This document shows positions 27,740 to 62,293 of a stretch of 64,000 bases of DNA, one piece after another. A program made the translations under genes and the position numbers. Location of the stretch: contig BPGU01000001.1 of assembly GCA_026003195.1 (NCBI GenBank), positions 62,001 through 126,000 on the forward strand, written 5' to 3'. This DNA is from Armatimonadota bacterium. GTDB taxonomy: Bacteria; Armatimonadota; HRBIN16. The stretch's first letter is position 1. Every line of letters begins with the position of its first letter. The notes beneath the pieces are model-generated. The model did not search any database and was not told where the DNA came from. It was given only the letters and a program-made list of their open reading frames with translations.

Positions 27740-28887
27740 CTGAGTATGCCGGTCAAGCTACAAAGGGCGCACGGTGGATGCCTTGGGGCAAAGGGCCGAT
27801 GAAGGACGCGGTCAGCGGCGAAACGCCTCGGGGAGCCGCAAACAGGCTGTGATCCGAGGGTCTCCGAATGGGGTAACCCGGCCGTCGTAATGGACGGTCA
27901 CCCACCGCTGAATCCATAGGCGGTGTGGAGGGCACCCGGGGAACTGAAACATCTTAGTACCCGGAGGAAAAGAAAGCAGATGCGATTCCCTTAGTAGCGG
28001 CGAGCGAACGGGGAACAGCCCAAACCGATAGGGTGTCCAAGCGGGCAGCGTTGCCCTATCGGGGTAGTGGGACCCACCAGCGGGATGGCACCGTCCCGCA
28101 GGGAGTTACCAAATCGCCCGTTAGCAGAAGTGCCTGGAACGGCACGCCATAGAGGGTGACAGCCCCGTACGCGAAAACGGAGCGATCTCCCGGTGGGCAT
28201 CCCAAGTAGCACGGAGCACGAGGAACTCTGTGCGAATCTGCGCCGACCACGGCGTAAGGCTAAATACCCTTTGCCACCGATAGCGCACTAGTACCGTGAG
28301 GGAAAGGTGAAAAGCACCCCGGGAGGGGAGTGAAAGAGAACCTGAAACCGTGTGCCTACAAACAGTCGGAGCCCTATCCGTAGGGTGACGGCGTACCTTT
28401 TGCAGAATGAGCTGGCGAGTTACCGTACGCGGCAAGGTTAAGGCACTCCGTGCCGGAGCCGCAGGGAAACCGAGTCCGAAGAGGGCGTTGAGTCGCGTGC
28501 GGTAGACCCGAAACCGCGCGATCTACCCATGGCCAGGGTGAAGCGGGGGTAAGACCTCGTGGAGGCCCGAACCGGTGTCGGTTGAAGACGGCTCGGATGA
28601 GCTGTGGGTAGTGTGGTGAAATGCCAATCGAGCGCGGAGATAGCTGGTTCTCCCCGAAATGCATTTAGGTGCAGCGTTGCGTGTTTTCTGCCGCAGGTAG
28701 AGCACTGGATGGGCTAGGGGCCTCACCAGGTTACCAAACCCAACCAAACTCCGAATGGCGGCAGATGAAGCGCAGCAGTGAGACTGCGGGGGATAAGCTT
28801 CGCAGTCGAGAGGGAAACAGCCCAGACCGCCCGCTAAGGTCCCCAAATGCACGCTAAGTGTGAAAGGATGTGGAGCCACATAGACAA

Positions 28888-28918
<31 letters not shown>

Positions 28919-29719
28919 TAAACAGTGCGTAACAGCTGACTGGTCGACGTGGCTCTGCGCCGATAATGTAAGGGGGCTCAAGCGTGCTACCGAAGCGGCG
29001 GGCTCTCCTGGTCACAGGAGAGCGGTAGGGGAGCGTTCTGCACGCAGCGAAGCCAGAGCGAAAGCACTGGTGGAGCGTGCAGAAGTGCGAATGCCAGCAT
29101 GAGTAGCGAGAAGACGGGTGAGAATCCCGTCCGCCGAAAGCCTAAGGGTTCTCAAGGAAGGCTCGTCCTCTTGAGGTCAGTCGGGCCTAAGCCGAGGGCG
29201 AACGCCGTAGGCGATGGACACACGGTTGATATTCCGTGACCAGGCAGGCGCGTTTGTACGATGGGGTGACGCCGGGGAAAGCTCCAAGCGCGGGGTTGGT
29301 TGACCGCGTTCCCTGGCTGGAGGTGTGCGGTAGGCAAATCCGCCGCACGTTAGCCTCTGACCAGGGACGAGCCGCGGCTACGGCCAAGGCGAAGTGGGGC
29401 AGACTCCGGACGAGAAAAACCTCTAAGGAGTGCCTGTCCTGCCCGTACCGCAAACCGACACAGGTAGGCGAGTAGAGGATACTCAGGCGCGCGAGAGAAC
29501 TCCCGTTAAGGAACTAGGCAAAATGGCCCCGTAACTTCGGGAGAAGGGGCGCCACCGCAAGGTGGCCGCAGTGAAAGGGCCCAGGCGACTGTTTACCAAA
29601 AACACAGCTCTCTGCGAAGCCGAAAGGCGACGTATAGGGGGTGACACCTGCCCAATGCCCGTAGGTTAAGGGGAGGGGTTCGGCGCAAGCCAAAGCCCCA
29701 AACCGAAGCCCGGGTGAAT

Positions 29720-29760
<41 letters not shown>

Positions 29761-29768
29761 AGTCGGGT

Positions 29769-30503
29769 AAGTCTGGACTTGCCCCGCTGACGTCGCAAGG
29801 CGCAGCGCTAAACCGGCTCATATCGGGGAAGCCCTCGCCCCAACAGGCAGGGTAATCCCGAGGGAAGTTCCCGCACAGGGAACCCCGTAACGACTGACCC
29901 GAAAGGGGAGGCGCGCCCCACCGGGTGCGCAAAATGCCGGTTCCTCGCCCCTTGCACCAGCAAGGAAGTGGGGCCTATGGAGACGCGGGATGACGCTAAA
30001 CACGCACGAACTGGACGGCTGGTACGTGACGGGCTTGAGCGAAGGAGAAGCGTGCTTCCACGTTACCTTTACCCTGCGTAAGCGGGTGAAGGTAGGCATC
30101 GAAACCCGACCTTCCTTCAGCCTGTCGCTCAACCAGAAAGACCTGCACCTGCTGCAAAGCGTGCAGAAGTTCTTCGGATGTGGCGGTATCCGCTACAGCC
30201 GAGCCGACCGAACCTATAAATACGAAGTTCGGTCTATTCGCGACCTGATGCGGAAAATTATCCCGCACTTCGAGCGGTATCCGCTGCAGGGCGCCAAACG
30301 CGAAGACTTCGAACGCTTTGCCAGCATCTGCCAAAAGGTGCACGCGAACCTGCACCTGAACCGACAACATCTGCGCGAGATTATCGAACTCGCTTACGCG
30401 ATGAACAGTTCGGGCGTGCACAAGCGCAGTAAGCGCGATCTCCTAAGGGTACTCGGCGAGGAAAAGGGATAGTCTACCCCCTCTGGAAACAGAGGATGTG
30501 GTG
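29769..30503 (+). mobile_element. Group I intron at 23S position 1951 (L1951), 735 nt
   Basis: The 5' exon end GGGT and first intron bases AAGT pair with ACTTGCCC (29777-29784) around a CTGG loop to form P1, with the required T29768-G29781 wobble at the splice site. The intron ends in G30503. Joining GTCGGGT to AAGTTCCGACC gives the E. coli sequence. P7 strands are GACT (29892-29895, in GTAACGACTGA) and AGTC (30471-30474, in GATAGTCT). An endonuclease gene fills the space between the two P7 strands. By my count the site is after U1951, a site where I recall a Coxiella group I intron. Self-splicing is inferred, not shown. Confidence 0.88.
29990..30472 (+). CDS. LAGLIDADG homing endonuclease in the L1951 intron (single motif)
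   Basis: The 160-residue product has one LAGLIDADG motif, LDGWYVTGLSEGEACF, near residues 8-23, with the catalytic acid in the SEGE segment, followed by the beta-strands typical of the I-CreI class (FTLRKRVKVGIETRPSFSLS). One motif and about 160 residues predict a homodimer. The likely target is the intronless 23S sequence around position 1951. The ribosome site before the ATG is weak. The TAG stop (30470-30472) overlaps the 3' strand of the intron's P7, so coding and ribozyme sequence are fused there. Confidence 0.88.
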   Translation: MTLNTHELDGWYVTGLSEGEACFHVTFTLRKRVKVGIETRPSFSLSLNQKDLHLLQSVQKFFGCGGIRYSRADRTYKYEVRSIRDLMRKIIPHFERYPLQGAKREDFERFASICQKVHANLHLNRQHLREIIELAYAMNSSGVHKRSKRDLLRVLGEEKG

Positions 30504-30754
30504 AAGTTCCGACCCGCACGAATGGTGTAACGATCTGGGCGCTGTCTCAACGGGAGACTCGGTGAAATTGTAGCACCGGTGAAGATGCCGGTTACCCACC
30601 GCAGGACGGAAAGACCCCGTGGAGCTTTACTACACCCTGGTATTGCGTTCTGGAGTAGTCTGTAGAGCGTAGGTGGGAGCCGCAAGGCGCCAATGGAACA
30701 CCACCCTGACTATTCTGGGACGCTAACCCGAGCCGTTATCCGGCGAGGAGACAG

Positions 30755-31707
<953 letters not shown>

Positions 31708-31871
31708 CCTAAAAGGTAACGGAGGCGCCCAAAGCTTCCCTCAGCGTGGTCGGAAATCACGCGTCGAGTGTAAGGGCATAAGGGAGGCTGACTGTGAGAC
31801 CGACTGGTCGAGCAGGGGCGAAAGCCGGGCCTAATGACCCTCTGGTGGCGTGTGGACGCGCCAGGGTTCAC

Positions 31872-31902
<31 letters not shown>

Positions 31903-31932
31903 GATCTTGCCCAAGCGCTCACAGCGACGGCA

Positions 31933-31974
<42 letters not shown>

Positions 31975-31981
31975 GAGCAGG

Positions 31982-32064
<83 letters not shown>

Positions 32065-32407
32065 GGTGGGCGCAGGAGGTCTGAGGGGGGCTGTCCCTAG
32101 TACGAGAGGACCGGGACGGACCGACCTCTGGTGTACCAGTTGTCCCGCCAGGGGCAGACGCTGGGTAGCTATGTCGGGTCGTGATAAGCGCTGAAAGCAT
32201 CTAAGTGCGAAGCACGCCCCAAGATGAGACCTCCCACGGGGATAACCCGGTAAGGACCCCGGAAGAGAACCGGGTGGATAGGCCGCAGGTGTAAGCACGG
32301 TAACGTGTTCAGCCTAGCGGTACTAATAGTCCGAGGGCTTGACCATATTCACGCTTTGCCCGAGATGCCAACCCCTGTGCAGCTCTCCAGTGGCTTACAT
32401 CAGACGT

Positions 32408-52073: not shown

Positions 52074-52095
52074 GGAGAGGACGAGCAAAGAATGC

Positions 52096-52187
52096 GGGAA
52101 ACGGAACGGCTTGGCGGGAGCTTCGCCCTTCAGGGAGATGGTGGCATGAACAGGTCTGGAGGGCGAACCTCCGCGTGAGCCAAACGT
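52096..52187 (+). repeat. Dispersed intergenic hairpin repeat, copy 1 (order A-B)
   Basis: Element A (AACGGCTTGGCGGGAGCTTC then GCCC) has a GGCG...CGCC hairpin. It is followed by element B (GGTCTGGAGGGCGAACCTCC then GCGTGAGCC), which has a GGAGG...CCTCC hairpin. Closely similar A and B elements occur in the opposite order at 59369-59455. Both lie in non-coding gaps. Confidence 0.6.
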
Positions 52188-52235
52188 TACCTCCTCCGCT
52201 TGCAGGAGTCTCGGATTTTATGCCACAATATGATA

Positions 52236-52331
52236 CGCGGCGAGCGTTGCACAGCGCCCGCCGCGATGATGTGTGTACGGGCGGCTATTCCTCTCCGTAC
52301 ACCACTCGAGCGTCGGCACACATCTGACGCT
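52236..52331 (+). promoter_or_regulatory. Structured leader of the 2-oxoacid dehydrogenase operon (three hairpins)
   Basis: Three stems follow one another: CGCGGCG/CGCCGCG (52236-52265), GTGTACGG/CCGTACAC (52273-52302, 8 bp) and AGCGTC/GACGCT (52309-52331). The last ends about 10 nt before GAGGAGGA of the E1-alpha gene. It may be a cis-regulatory leader. It matches no riboswitch that I recognise, and no alternative pairing or T-run is evident. Confidence 0.4.
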
Positions 52332-52357
52332 GGACAGAAATTGAGGAGGAACATATC

Positions 52358-59368: not shown

Positions 59369-59455
59369 AAACGGTCTGGAGGGCGAACCTGCCGGTGAGC
59401 CGAACGCACATCCCGAAACGGCTCGGCAGGAGCCTCGCCCCCCAGATGGGAACTG
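59369..59455 (+). repeat. Dispersed intergenic hairpin repeat, copy 2 (order B-A)
   Basis: Element B (CGGTCTGGAGGGCGAACCTG, then GGTGAGCCGAACG) is followed by element A (GAAACGGCTCGGCAGGAGCC then TCGCCC). The same two elements occur in order A-B at 52096-52187. Confidence 0.6.
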
Positions 59456-59461
59456 CGCAGG

Positions 59462-62293
59462 CTAATCGTCCCCTATCTCGCCGAAGTTGCGCACCAGCAC
59501 GCCAAAGTCAAATAGCGTCACCTCGCCGTCACCGTCCAGGTCCGCACGAGCATCCCAGTTCCCATCACCAGATGTACTGCCGAACGACGCCACCAGCCTG
59601 CCGAAATCAAACAGCGTCACCTCGTTGTCGCCGTCAATGTCGCCGTTGGTGAGCCCAACCATCAACCCCAGCACACTGCCCCCGCTGGTGTCCACCTCCA
59701 CCGTACGACGCAGGTAACTCAACGGCTTCACCGACAGCGCAAACTGCCCCACCGGCACTCCCGGCACCACGAAACCGCCGTCGGGGTCCAGCAGCAGCGA
59801 GCGCTTGTGCACATCACCCGCACGTATCTCCCAGTCCACGAACAGCGGCAGGCTTGCCCCAAAATCGTTGAACAGCAGGTAGCCCTGCACGATGGGCGGG
59901 TGAAACTCGTCCGCGCCGATGTCCACCGTGCCGTTGCCGATGCGCGCCTCGCCGTCCATGTCGGTGTCGGTGCTCACCACGCTGTTGTCTCCCCTGTCGA
60001 TGCAGGGCGAGCCGGGCAGCAGGTGTCCCGCCACCAGCAGCGGGTCTGCGAAGATATTGCCGTCCCTGCCGATGGGGTTGCTGATGTTTCCCTGGAAGTT
60101 ATAGGGCATGTTTCCCCACACGCAGTTGTGGCGGAAATCGGACAGGGCAGGGGCGGAGATACCGCCTCCTGCATTGAAGGCAAGGATAGTGTTGCGCACC
60201 CGCGTGCTGGTGCTGCTCGTCCAGATGCCTCCGGCATTATCCGCCATGTTGTCAATGACCGTGCACCCTGTCAACGTCGGGGAGGAGGACCACCAGCAAT
60301 ACACCCCGCCACCGTCTCCGGAAGCGCGGTTGCCCGAGAGGGTGCACCCTGTCAACGTCGGGGAGGAGTTGTACGAGCAAGACACCCCGCCACCGCCGGA
60401 GGCGCGGTTGTAGGCGATAGTGCACCCTGTCAACGTCGGGGAGGAGTTGTACGAGCAAGACACCCCGCCACCGTCGTAAGTAGCGCTGTTGTAGGCGATA
60501 GTGCACCCTGTCAACGTCGGGGAGGAGTTGTCCCTGCAATACACCCCGCCACCGGAGGAAGCGCTGTTGCCCGAGAGGGTGCACCCGCTCAACGTCGGAG
60601 AGGAGTTATACCAGCAAGACACCCCGCCACCGGAGGAAGCGCTGTTGCCCGAGAGGGTGCACCCGCTCAACGTCGGGGAGGAGAACGAGCAACACACCCC
60701 GCCACCGTCTCCGGAAGCGCTGTTGCCCGAGAGGGTGCACCCGCTCAACGTCGGGGAGGAGGACGAGCAATACACCCCGCCACCGGAGGAAGCGCTGTTG
60801 CCCGAGAGGGTGCACCCGCTCAACGTCGGGGAGGAGGACGAGCAACACACCCCGCCACCGTAGGAAGCGCGGTTGCCCGAGAGGGTGCACCCGCTCAACG
60901 TCGGAGAGGAGGACGAGCAATACACCCCGCCACCGTAGTTGGAAGCACTGTTGCCCGAGAGGGTGCACCCTGTCAACGTCGGGGAGGAGTTATACCAGCA
61001 AGACACCCCGCCACCGTAGGAAGCGCTGTTGCCCGAGAAGGTGCACCCGCTCAACGTCGGAGAGGAGTGGTCGTAGCAAGACACCCCGCCACCGTAGTTG
61101 GAAGCACTGTTGCCCGAGAGGGTGCACCCTGTCAACGTCGGGGAGGAGTTATACCAGCAAGACACCCCGCCACCGTAGGAAGCGCTGTTGCCCGAGAGGG
61201 TGCAATCTGTCAACGTCGGGGAGGAGTAGTCGTAGCAAGACACCCCGCCACCGCTGTTGTTGGCAATGGTGCACCCTGTCAACGTCGGGGAGGAGGAGTA
61301 GCAATACACCCCGCCACCGGAGGAAGCGCTGTTGCCCGAGAGGGTGCACCCTGTCAACCTCGGGGAGGAGTTGTAGCAATACACCCCGCCACCGGAGGAA
61401 GCGCTGTTGCCCGAGAGGGTGCACCCGCTCAACGTCGGGGAGGAGTAGTCGTAGCAAGACACCCCGCCACCGTAGCGAGCGCTGTTGCCCGAGAGGGTGC
61501 ACCCGCTCAACGTCGGGGAGGAGGACGAGCAATACACCCCGCCACCGTCGTCGGAAGCGCGGTTGTCCGAGAGGGTGCACCCGCTCAACGTCGGGGAGGA
61601 GTTGTAGCAAAACAACCCTCCACCATAGCGAGCGCTGTTGCCCGAGAGGGTGCATCCGCTCAACGTCGGGGAGGAGTTGTAGCAATACACCCCGCCACCG
61701 TAGCGAGCGCGGTTGCCCGAGAGGGTGCACCCTGTCAACGTCGGGGAGGAGTTGTTGCAATACACCCCGCCACCGTCTTTGGAAGTGCTGTTGTTGGAAA
61801 TGGTGCAGTTTGCCACCGTGAGCAGGTTCGCACTGGAGGTCAGGTATAATCCCCCACCATACTCTGCACTGCCGTTGCGGATGGTGAAACCATCCAGCCG
61901 ATAGGCGCGGTTGGCGGTAGTGGGCGAGGTGACCACACTGCCCCCCTGACCACCGTCCAGAACGGTCTCATACGGGTCAAAATATGGACGAGGGAAAGTG
62001 GGACGTTCCGAGAGGCTGCTCTCAGTGCCCCGGAAGCCGCCATACAGCGCAACGCCGTTCTGGAGGGTGATGCGCTCCTGATACAACCCATAGCGCACCC
62101 ATATCTGGTCGCCGGGCAATGTCGTCCGTAACGCAGCGGTCACCGTGCGCTTCGCCGTCGCCCAGGAGAGACCGTCCTGCAGGTCATCGCCCTGGGGGGA
62201 GACATACACCACTTTCGCGAACAGGGGACTGCTCATGCCCAGCAGGATGAGGCACAACATGCTTATCCATCCGTAGTGCCCAGACCTTTTCAC
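59462..62293 (-). CDS. Secreted Pmp-like beta-helix protein with C-terminal dockerin-like pair
   Basis: Of two close GTG codons I choose 62293, 8 nt after AGGAGG; it opens a signal peptide (ISMLCLILLGMSSPLFA). Residues about 25-130 begin the parallel beta-helix (VVYVSPQGDD, DGLSWATA, YGGFRGTESS). Then about 21 units of roughly 23 residues run to about residue 690, with the consensus SSPTLSGCTLSGNSAS-x-GGGVYC. These contain the GG[AG]-hydrophobic and S-x-N elements of Chlamydia-type polymorphic membrane proteins. A regulatory-like beta domain and two dockerin-like loops (DGDNEVTLFDFG, DGDGEVTLFDFG) end the 943-residue protein. It is probably a surface adhesin or polysaccharide-binding protein. 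Confidence 0.85.
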   Translation of the reverse strand: MKRSGHYGWISMLCLILLGMSSPLFAKVVYVSPQGDDLQDGLSWATAKRTVTAALRTTLPGDQIWVRYGLYQERITLQNGVALYGGFRGTESSLSERPTFPRPYFDPYETVLDGGQGGSVVTSPTTANRAYRLDGFTIRNGSAEYGGGLYLTSSANLLTVANCTISNNSTSKDGGGVYCNNSSPTLTGCTLSGNRARYGGGVYCYNSSPTLSGCTLSGNSARYGGGLFCYNSSPTLSGCTLSDNRASDDGGGVYCSSSSPTLSGCTLSGNSARYGGGVSCYDYSSPTLSGCTLSGNSASSGGGVYCYNSSPRLTGCTLSGNSASSGGGVYCYSSSPTLTGCTIANNSGGGVSCYDYSSPTLTDCTLSGNSASYGGGVSCWYNSSPTLTGCTLSGNSASNYGGGVSCYDHSSPTLSGCTFSGNSASYGGGVSCWYNSSPTLTGCTLSGNSASNYGGGVYCSSSSPTLSGCTLSGNRASYGGGVCCSSSSPTLSGCTLSGNSASSGGGVYCSSSSPTLSGCTLSGNSASGDGGGVCCSFSSPTLSGCTLSGNSASSGGGVSCWYNSSPTLSGCTLSGNSASSGGGVYCRDNSSPTLTGCTIAYNSATYDGGGVSCSYNSSPTLTGCTIAYNRASGGGGVSCSYNSSPTLTGCTLSGNRASGDGGGVYCWWSSSPTLTGCTVIDNMADNAGGIWTSSTSTRVRNTILAFNAGGGISAPALSDFRHNCVWGNMPYNFQGNISNPIGRDGNIFADPLLVAGHLLPGSPCIDRGDNSVVSTDTDMDGEARIGNGTVDIGADEFHPPIVQGYLLFNDFGASLPLFVDWEIRAGDVHKRSLLLDPDGGFVVPGVPVGQFALSVKPLSYLRRTVEVDTSGGSVLGLMVGLTNGDIDGDNEVTLFDFGRLVASFGSTSGDGNWDARADLDGDGEVTLFDFGVLVRNFGEIGDD
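60245..61790. repeat. Tandem DNA repeat coding for the beta-helix units
   Basis: About 20 copies of a 63-75 nt unit, many almost identical. On the plus strand each has the core TGCACCCGCTCAACGTCGGG, or the TGTCAACGTC variant, and ACACCCCGCCACCG. Copy lengths are multiples of three, so copy number can change without breaking the frame. Confidence 0.85.

Follow-up and report, generated by a model that had tools for sequence, protein, structure and literature searches.

Introduction

Few repeats in bacterial genomes are as abundant as repetitive extragenic palindromic sequences (REPs). In the cited sections on the REP/BIME/REPIN-RAYT system, or 'REPtron', more than 100 short, mostly extragenic imperfect palindromes are described together with alternating inverted arrays and with a REP-associated tyrosine transposase (RAYT) gene that is flanked by inverted copies and has its own specific REP type (PMC2817692, PMC8266576); RAYT genes bounded by two inverted REPs and alternating BIMEs are described in particular in PMC2817692. 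The REP tag is given as GT[AG]G (PMC3686654; for canonical REPs, PMC6006769). For TnpAREP of E. coli, the pertinent part of PMC8266576 states that single-stranded REP and not its complement is recognised, that the GTAG tag and a mismatched bulge are needed, and that cleavage occurs at a CT either 5' or 3' of the REP. In the model proposed there, A3G4 of the tag selects the CT; the tag mutants stem from another system, and experimental support in E. coli is lacking. Residues W94, Q95, E100 (D in some subclasses), and R104 were linked with tag recognition in the cited part of PMC6006769, which also lists REP-like motifs without GT[AG]G for RAYT classes 2.6 and 3; one of these may be the class described here.

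Two further systems are close to the one described here. The cited part of PMC3733652 presents the GTAG super-family, i.e., tagged stem-loops of 20-40 nt with head-head and tail-tail dimers, a transposase association, and an occurrence in the PVC group; the tags named there are GYAG, GYRG, GTRG, GTMG, and GTGG, with no GGAG. Elements of the IS200/IS605 type, as far as covered in PMC8266576 and PMC6006769, carry subterminal hairpins that are recognised by HUH/Y1 transposases, which are related proteins.

Here, we analysed a 64,000-nt stretch of DNA (the window; C1:62001-126000) from a 4.58-Mb Armatimonadota genome in 29 contigs. Two hairpins, A and B, had been predicted from the window in swapped order at 52096-52187 (A-B) and 59369-59455 (B-A). 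We consider it very likely (probability of about 93%) that they represent a GGAG-tagged REP/BIME-like element, i.e., the non-autonomous partner of a RAYT (HUH/Y1), which is orphaned in this genome. The element is ordinary in kind (REP/BIME plus RAYT) and a variant in tag and breadth. It resembles the REPtron in number, extragenic placement, alternating arrays, RAYT flanking, and RAYT-specific REP type, and the E. coli REP in a mismatch within the stem and a CT beside the tag. In contrast to the REPtron as described in the sections cited above, it has GGAG in place of GT[AG]G, a tandem GA/GA mismatch, and a TCC loop; moreover, the 24-mer is nearly the same across several phyla, and no RAYT was found in its own genome. 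Copies of this genome mostly carry GGAG and not the 5' GT[AG]G of GTRG-type REP/BIME. Because of this tag, the element falls outside the strict GT[AG]G definition, and we class it as REP-like, with a mode of action like that of REPs. CGTC palindromic repeats, which have a CGTC tag and no dedicated transposase, were rejected as a match on account of the GGAG tag and the RAYT association.

Results

The two loci in the window

Both loci read as predicted. A scan of the window with up to three mismatches returned exactly two B and two A units, while 100 dinucleotide shuffles of the window gave no B places and a mean of 0.01 A places. The B copies of the two loci are alike at 21 of 24 bases and the A copies at 19 of 24, confirming the near-identity that had been noted, and the non-coding position was likewise borne out, with locus 1 in an intergenic gap and locus 2 beyond the 3' end of a gene. 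The gap of locus 1 (52074-52357) separates a radical-SAM gene (PF04055) from a dehydrogenase E1 gene (PF00676). It contains an A-type unit on the minus strand at 52108..52131 (5'-GAAGGGCGAAGCTCCCGCCAAGCC-3' on that strand), a spacer of 26 nt between the facing tag ends (52132..52157), and a B-type unit on the plus strand at 52158..52181 (GGAGGGCGAACCTCCGCGTGAGCC), preceded by CT. This A-type unit is degenerate: the tag is GAAG, the internal mismatch is GA/AA, and the inner pair 10-19 is unformed. Locus 2 closely follows a beta-helix/dockerin gene, whose 3' end is at 59462, and comprises a B-type unit on the plus strand at 59378..59401 (GGAGGGCGAACCTGCCGGTGAGCC), again with CT before it, an 18-nt spacer between the hairpin (tail) ends at 59402..59419, and an A-type unit on the minus strand at 59420..59443 (GGGGGGCGAGGCTCCTGCCGAGCC on that strand).

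Some observations were made on the surroundings. The 3' end of the beta-helix/dockerin gene (59418-60000) is 96% identical to C4:393931-394513 and 83% identical to C3:402046-402633, and since an A copy stands just after all three gene ends of this type, duplication of the gene end probably took the REP with it. The segment 58884-59367 is 88% identical to C1:232070-232548 of the same genome, where it begins inside the 3'-terminal part of a helicase-like gene (putatively PriA); the segment looks like a stray 3' gene fragment, and the similarity stops about 10 nt before the B copy. Just downstream of the locus-1 pair and upstream of the E1 gene (52200-52229), TTGCAG and CACAAT boxes were noticed by eye; by eye, too, they are similar in several congeners, with the REP pair present or absent, and they could be the promoter of the E1 operon.

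One 24-nt element in two orientations

A and B had been taken for two elements. Read backwards, the A form is GGAGGGCGAGGCTCCTGCCGAGCC (consensus 5' to 3': GGAGGGCGAGGCTCCYGCCGAGCC), and the B form is GGAGGGCGAACCTCCCGGTGAGCC. As A corresponds to a close variant of B in reverse complement, the two are a single 24-nt element in opposite orientations, and the notion that they are unrelated is ruled out by this relationship and by the occurrence of both in alternating arrays. The element consists of the tetranucleotide GGAG and, directly 3' of this tag, a 20-nt imperfect hairpin of the form GGC.GA.NNN-TCCY-NNN.GA.GCC with a conserved tandem GA/GA as internal mismatch.

The imperfect palindrome expected of REP/BIME was evident from pairing counts, with the six pairs intact in 39-46 of 47 distinct copies: pairs 5-7/22-24 were intact in 44-46 and pairs 10-12/17-19 in 39-44, and positions 8-9/20-21 were GA/GA in 43-45. 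Pair 11-18 was G-C in 23 and C-G in 19 of these copies, and pair 10-19 was G-C in 20 and A-T in 15. These changes count as few events because they mostly reflect the A/B difference, and the pairing evidence is inflated by this two-type structure and by shared ancestry. In other species, GA/GA is retained together with further complementary inner stems (ATC/GAT, AGC/GCT, GCC/GGC, GCG/CGC, and GTG/CAC).

The hairpin originally drawn for B, GGAGG/CCTCC (1-5/11-15), holds in part, as a fold that the element may alternatively adopt: two of three B sequences have it as their lowest-energy structure, and four of its five pairs are intact in 38-46 of the 47 distinct copies, but the fifth is broken in 26 of 47. 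Five 24-mers folded as single-stranded DNA reached z-scores of −0.3 to −1.4, no better than shuffles, and the proposed fold was the lowest-energy one in two of the five; energies of single 24-mers are hence uninformative on the hairpin. As a whole, the locus-2 pair gives a favourable long hairpin (z-scores of −3.0 and −4.3 on its two strands). CT immediately precedes 64 of 89 copies of this genome, which are not independent of each other, versus a background of 6%, and the preference may have been inherited with amplified flanks.

Copy number and genomic placement

The original proposal was to be given up if the genome held these two copies alone, which it does not. A genome-wide search yielded 34 B-like places (up to two mismatches) and 135 A-like places (up to three mismatches), compared to 0 and 1 for the respective reversed-pattern controls, which rules out chance hairpins. 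At least two places are common to both lists, so that the total at this stringency is at most 167. When up to six mismatches were allowed, 107 places were located in 60 three-kilobase loci of the genome (L001-L060), for which genes were called by a codon-usage gene finder trained on 28 ORFs of the window. Considering the 89 copies with up to three mismatches in these loci, 84 were outside predicted genes, compared to 579 of 6000 positions drawn at random from these loci. Convergent genes enclosed 25 of the 84 extragenic copies, codirectional genes 50, and divergent genes nine; the 501 control positions were distributed as 90, 255, and 156. High copy number (>100) and extragenic location, as known from REP/BIME, were therefore both found. 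Within the genus, copy numbers ranged from 15 to 145 (up to one mismatch; genomes 77-100% complete). Two of the loci, L001 (C1:3369-6392) and L015 (C9:18062-21085), contain three copies in the same surroundings, reflecting either a duplication or a redundant contig.

Doublets, arrays, and composites

Copies occurred singly or as inverted pairs, and singles were common. Among neighbours less than 400 nt apart, counted with inclusion of weak copies (up to six mismatches), tail-to-tail ('+-') pairs had a spacer of 18-20 nt in 17 of 31 cases and tag-to-tag ('-+') pairs one of 25-27 nt in four of eight; nine more neighbours were in the same orientation. The common doublet geometries thus have either the hairpin ends inside with a spacer of about 19 nt or the tags inside with about 26 nt, and 14 of the 31 tail-to-tail doublets enclose 45-193 nt. 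An A-B-A triple with spacers of 27 and 19 nt is located 4.5 kb past the window (C1:130515(-)/130566(+)/130609(-)). This triple and the arrays at L074 and L077 consist of alternating inverted copies with regular spacing, as is typical of REP/BIME. The swapped order of the two window loci is explained by A-B and B-A both being pieces of one alternating array type. The locus-1 pair with its spacer (80 nt) matches C2:83899-83978 at 89%, and two spacer types were seen by eye to recur among tail-to-tail doublets; given the recurrence of the 80-nt pair and of spacers, whole doublets seem to have been copied with their spacers.

Other repeats were observed next to the element. Same-orientation A copies 74 nt apart are present in L001, L015, L018, L029, and L060 of this genome; in L001, L015, L029, and L060, they enclose or adjoin a different palindromic repeat, GGCATTCACGGCTAAAGCCGTTCCC... 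(GCCAGC...GCTGGC). Hairpins rich in G+C are found inside some B...A doublets. It seems that further dispersed repeats form composites with the REP. Past the A copy, a similar sequence near AGAAGATKGAGCCTTGACARAGTACTA is common to copies of several loci (L031, L034, L037, L043, L045, L053, and L060), so that some longer units move, or were duplicated, whole.

Presence and absence in related genomes

The locus-1 pair stands between the same two genes in this genome and in the congener G005. In G009, these two genes are about 120 nt closer and the element is absent; the alignment leaves the ends of this difference around the pair unfixed, and no target duplication was identified. The other seven congeners have a different sequence upstream of the E1 gene, with no copy in the 190-350 nt inspected there in six of them, while the contig of G004 begins at this point. 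For locus 2, no congener keeps both flanks and no clean empty site was seen; the left flank, which is the repeated segment from the 3' end of the helicase-like gene, occurs without a copy in L143 of this genome and in L146-L150, whereas L144 and L145 of this genome have the right flank together with one A unit.

A further gap differs with respect to the RAYT itself. In G003, a RAYT gene lies between inverted copies and upstream of a gene with an orthologue in the genome analysed here, which has an A/B pair (C3:145836, 145879) and no RAYT in the orthologous gap. In G005, this gap holds a B copy, while it is free of copies in G009, G002, and G007. Loss of the RAYT from between two REPs and its arrival at a site already occupied by a REP would both explain the difference, and the data favour neither.

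RAYT genes in Armatimonadota

A RAYT-type transposase, suggested at the outset as something to look for, was found in relatives and not in the genome that holds the window. No PF01797 protein was detected there in a profile search that gave matches in six of 14 control genomes, nor was a match to the RAYT protein of G003, so that copies and enzyme do not share a cell here. The G003 gene (L071:2225-2692, 155 aa) is the one intact gene of its clade that was put to the REP-transposase model, NCBIfam NF047646 (REP-associated tyrosine transposase), which its product passes with 92.4 versus a cut-off of 80. The protein matches the TnpArep chain 4er8 at 1e-9 and, unlike a transposase of the IS200/IS605 type, remains below the cut-off of the respective model NF033573 (30.1 versus 55). 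H67, H69, Y126, W105, Q106, D111, and R115 are invariant in eight RAYTs, comprising an HUH motif and a conserved Tyr; judging by the 4er8 alignment, Y126 is the catalytic Tyr. According to the same alignment, W105, Q106, D111, and R115 appear to correspond to the tag-linked residues W94, Q95, E100, and R104.

In total, 42 of 101 genomes matched the G003 protein. RAYTs with at least 53% identity to it are encoded in G018, G040, G068, G075, and G009, the latter being broken by one TAG. The nearest copies are inverted at the RAYTs of G003, G040, and G009, and arrays with both orientations stand on both sides in G018 and G075; the RAYT of G068 lies 55 nt from a contig end and has copies on the other, sole visible side. 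A cognate RAYT flanked by inverted copies, as in REP/BIME, is therefore found in relatives and not in this genome. The A form (up to one mismatch) occurs in 22 of 101 genomes, including all six with such a RAYT, and none of these six belongs to the 79 genomes that lack it (Fisher p = 6e-5, uncorrected for relatedness). A strict one-to-one rule is contradicted by copies without a detected RAYT in G059 (63) and in this genome (82; A form, up to one mismatch). Regarding the other nine congeners, this RAYT is restricted to G003 and, in broken form, G009. RAYTs of the phylum with about 40-48% identity (G038, G043, G053, G054, G062, and G078) reside in genomes without the element. A second Y1 protein of G009 (L072), 31% identical to the G003 protein, passes the REP model at 92.7, and no copy of the element lies within its 5.5-kb locus.

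Association of RAYT and REP across phyla

For comparison across phyla, we used the best 80 of 253 RAYT loci retrieved by means of eight aligned Armatimonadota RAYTs, a sample that leans to this lineage. A copy (up to six mismatches) was present within 300 nt at 28 of these 80 loci, and inverted copies on both sides at 15 of 80, versus 0 of 80 in the reversed-sequence control. In a tree of 84 RAYTs (six of 90 rows were dropped), a single clade of 15 rows with 99/94 support, in which one gene appears twice (L227 and L077), spans Armatimonadota, Planctomycetota, Acidobacteriota, Hydrogenedentota, and one further bacterium. Fourteen of its rows have a REP within three mismatches of A or B and one has a further variant; five of the 19 rows with a REP within three mismatches fall outside the clade. 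When the 35 rows with a REP within six mismatches were considered and the 49 rows without one excluded, the label 'within three' needed six changes on the tree versus 12.0 in shuffles, none of 500 being as low. We also counted copies in 26 selected genomes. All eight clade members with a near-A REP hold 31 to 445 copies, and the genome of the clade member with the variant REP (L198) holds none; among the 17 others, three hold 3-7 copies and fourteen none. The REP type follows the RAYT clade, and one clade keeps nearly the same REP across phyla.

Every possible tag was counted on both sides of the RAYT with a fixed tag-8-4-8 hairpin. GGAG was found on both sides at 44 of 84 RAYT loci, whereas the next tag reached two, GTAG one (L211), and GTGG none; the remaining 40 loci had no GGAG pair by this fixed test. 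An outward-reading control also returned GGAG in 34 loci and is not clean because REPs come in inverted pairs. With stems of variable length, a tagged hairpin was seen on both sides at 44 of 85 loci, 28 of them with GGAG; since the tag was partly register-shifted here, the fixed architecture was preferred. Among 86 RAYT-flanking GGAG REPs (43 loci), 66 have the loop TCC, which is the complement of the tag's GGA; the GTAG-tagged REP of L211 keeps this loop as well. CT precedes 18 of 86 RAYT-flanking REPs of many species versus 5% expected, with CG (14) and AT (13) following. At L230 and L079, RAYTs lie between hairpins with very different tags (GTAA and GCGG, script-read), and these phyla may harbour additional REP-like classes.

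Discussion

The small non-autonomous mobile or REP-like family of the original prediction is supported by up to 167 dispersed copies, of which 84 of 89 are extragenic, by their geometry and pairing pattern, by presence and absence at the same site between species, by copies flanking the RAYT genes of relatives, and by the match of REP type and RAYT clade. By analogy with TnpAREP of E. coli, a RAYT would bind the hairpin as single-stranded DNA, read the GGAG tag as a guide, cut at the CT dinucleotide beside the tag, and rejoin the ends elsewhere. GGAG retains A3G4. Singles and inverted doublets (REPINs/BIMEs) would have spread in this way and accumulated in intergenic DNA, and we infer that the RAYT was lost from this lineage following amplification.

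The hairpins could instead be functional RNA or DNA signals with a host role, such as terminators, mRNA stabilisers, or a small RNA, with mobility being incidental. The excess of copies between convergent genes and their scarcity between divergent ones (25 versus nine of 84) fit 3'-end elements, and the strong fold of the locus-2 pair as a long hairpin points in the same direction. However, copies are present in both orientations, the orthologous site is empty in some congeners, copy number varies widely within the genus (15 to 145), and RAYT genes are flanked by copies. Moreover, Rfam returned nothing above the gathering score for the two window loci and five other element-bearing loci, with matches far below it only, and the transcribed structural RNA that had been considered originally thus found no support. 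We regard a host signal as an improbable explanation of the family, while a secondary host role after insertion is possible. Still less credible, to the point of being very improbable, is a MITE that is moved by an unrelated transposase (e.g., a DDE enzyme), with the 24-mer as its ends and some copies in longer composites. It would account for the tail-to-tail doublets that enclose 45-193 nt (14 of 31), for doublets copied whole, as indicated by shared spacers and the recurrent 80-nt locus-1 pair, and for some flanks being repeated past the 24-mer; but REPINs, too, copy doublets with their spacer, single copies are common, the 24-mers flank RAYT genes in many genomes, and no target duplication was identified.

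The REP/BIME-like reading could be extended to a separate GGAG-tagged REP super-family served by a RAYT lineage of its own (Planctomycetota, Verrucomicrobiota, Kiritimatiellota, Armatimonadota, and others), a guide changed to GGAG, and a loop-tag complementarity serving as a regulatory fold switch. As a whole, we consider this extension doubtful, and its parts differ in strength. A separate GGAG class is well supported by the RAYT-flanking tags. The data are only compatible with a tag-loop switch, in which a single strand would toggle between a cleavable tag-plus-hairpin form and a hairpin with masked GGAG/CTCC, thereby regulating mobilisation: the alternative fold is favoured in two of three B sequences, covariation gave no support, and a TCC loop also occurs in the GTAG-tagged REP of L211.

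A GGAG class may already have been described somewhere. In the main texts of PMC2817692, PMC3733652, PMC3686654, PMC8266576, and PMC6006769, 'GGAG' at the start of a word is absent, and a search whose scope left aside subscription papers and supplements found no paper with the whole words 'RAYT' and 'GGAG'. Likewise, no paper was found that pairs 'Armatimonadetes' with 'repetitive extragenic palindromic'. Searches based on GT[AG]G miss this GGAG-tagged class, which is tied to one RAYT lineage across several phyla. As a natural change of the guide sequence, GGAG is useful for understanding how RAYTs choose their cleavage site. With RAYT identities of only about half to 60%, the 24-nt REP is near-identical across phyla and makes a good object for gauging how strongly a REP is constrained by its RAYT, and the orphan copies, together with the difference between RAYT and REP pair at one orthologous gap, offer a route to studying RAYT gain or loss.

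Elsewhere in the window, the 23S rRNA gene (27751-32346) spans about 4.6 kb and includes a group I intron at 30779-31045 (Rfam). Two inner ORFs (29990-30472 and 31084-31719) have, by eye, the look of LAGLIDADG-type homing endonucleases, and the gene perhaps carries two introns.
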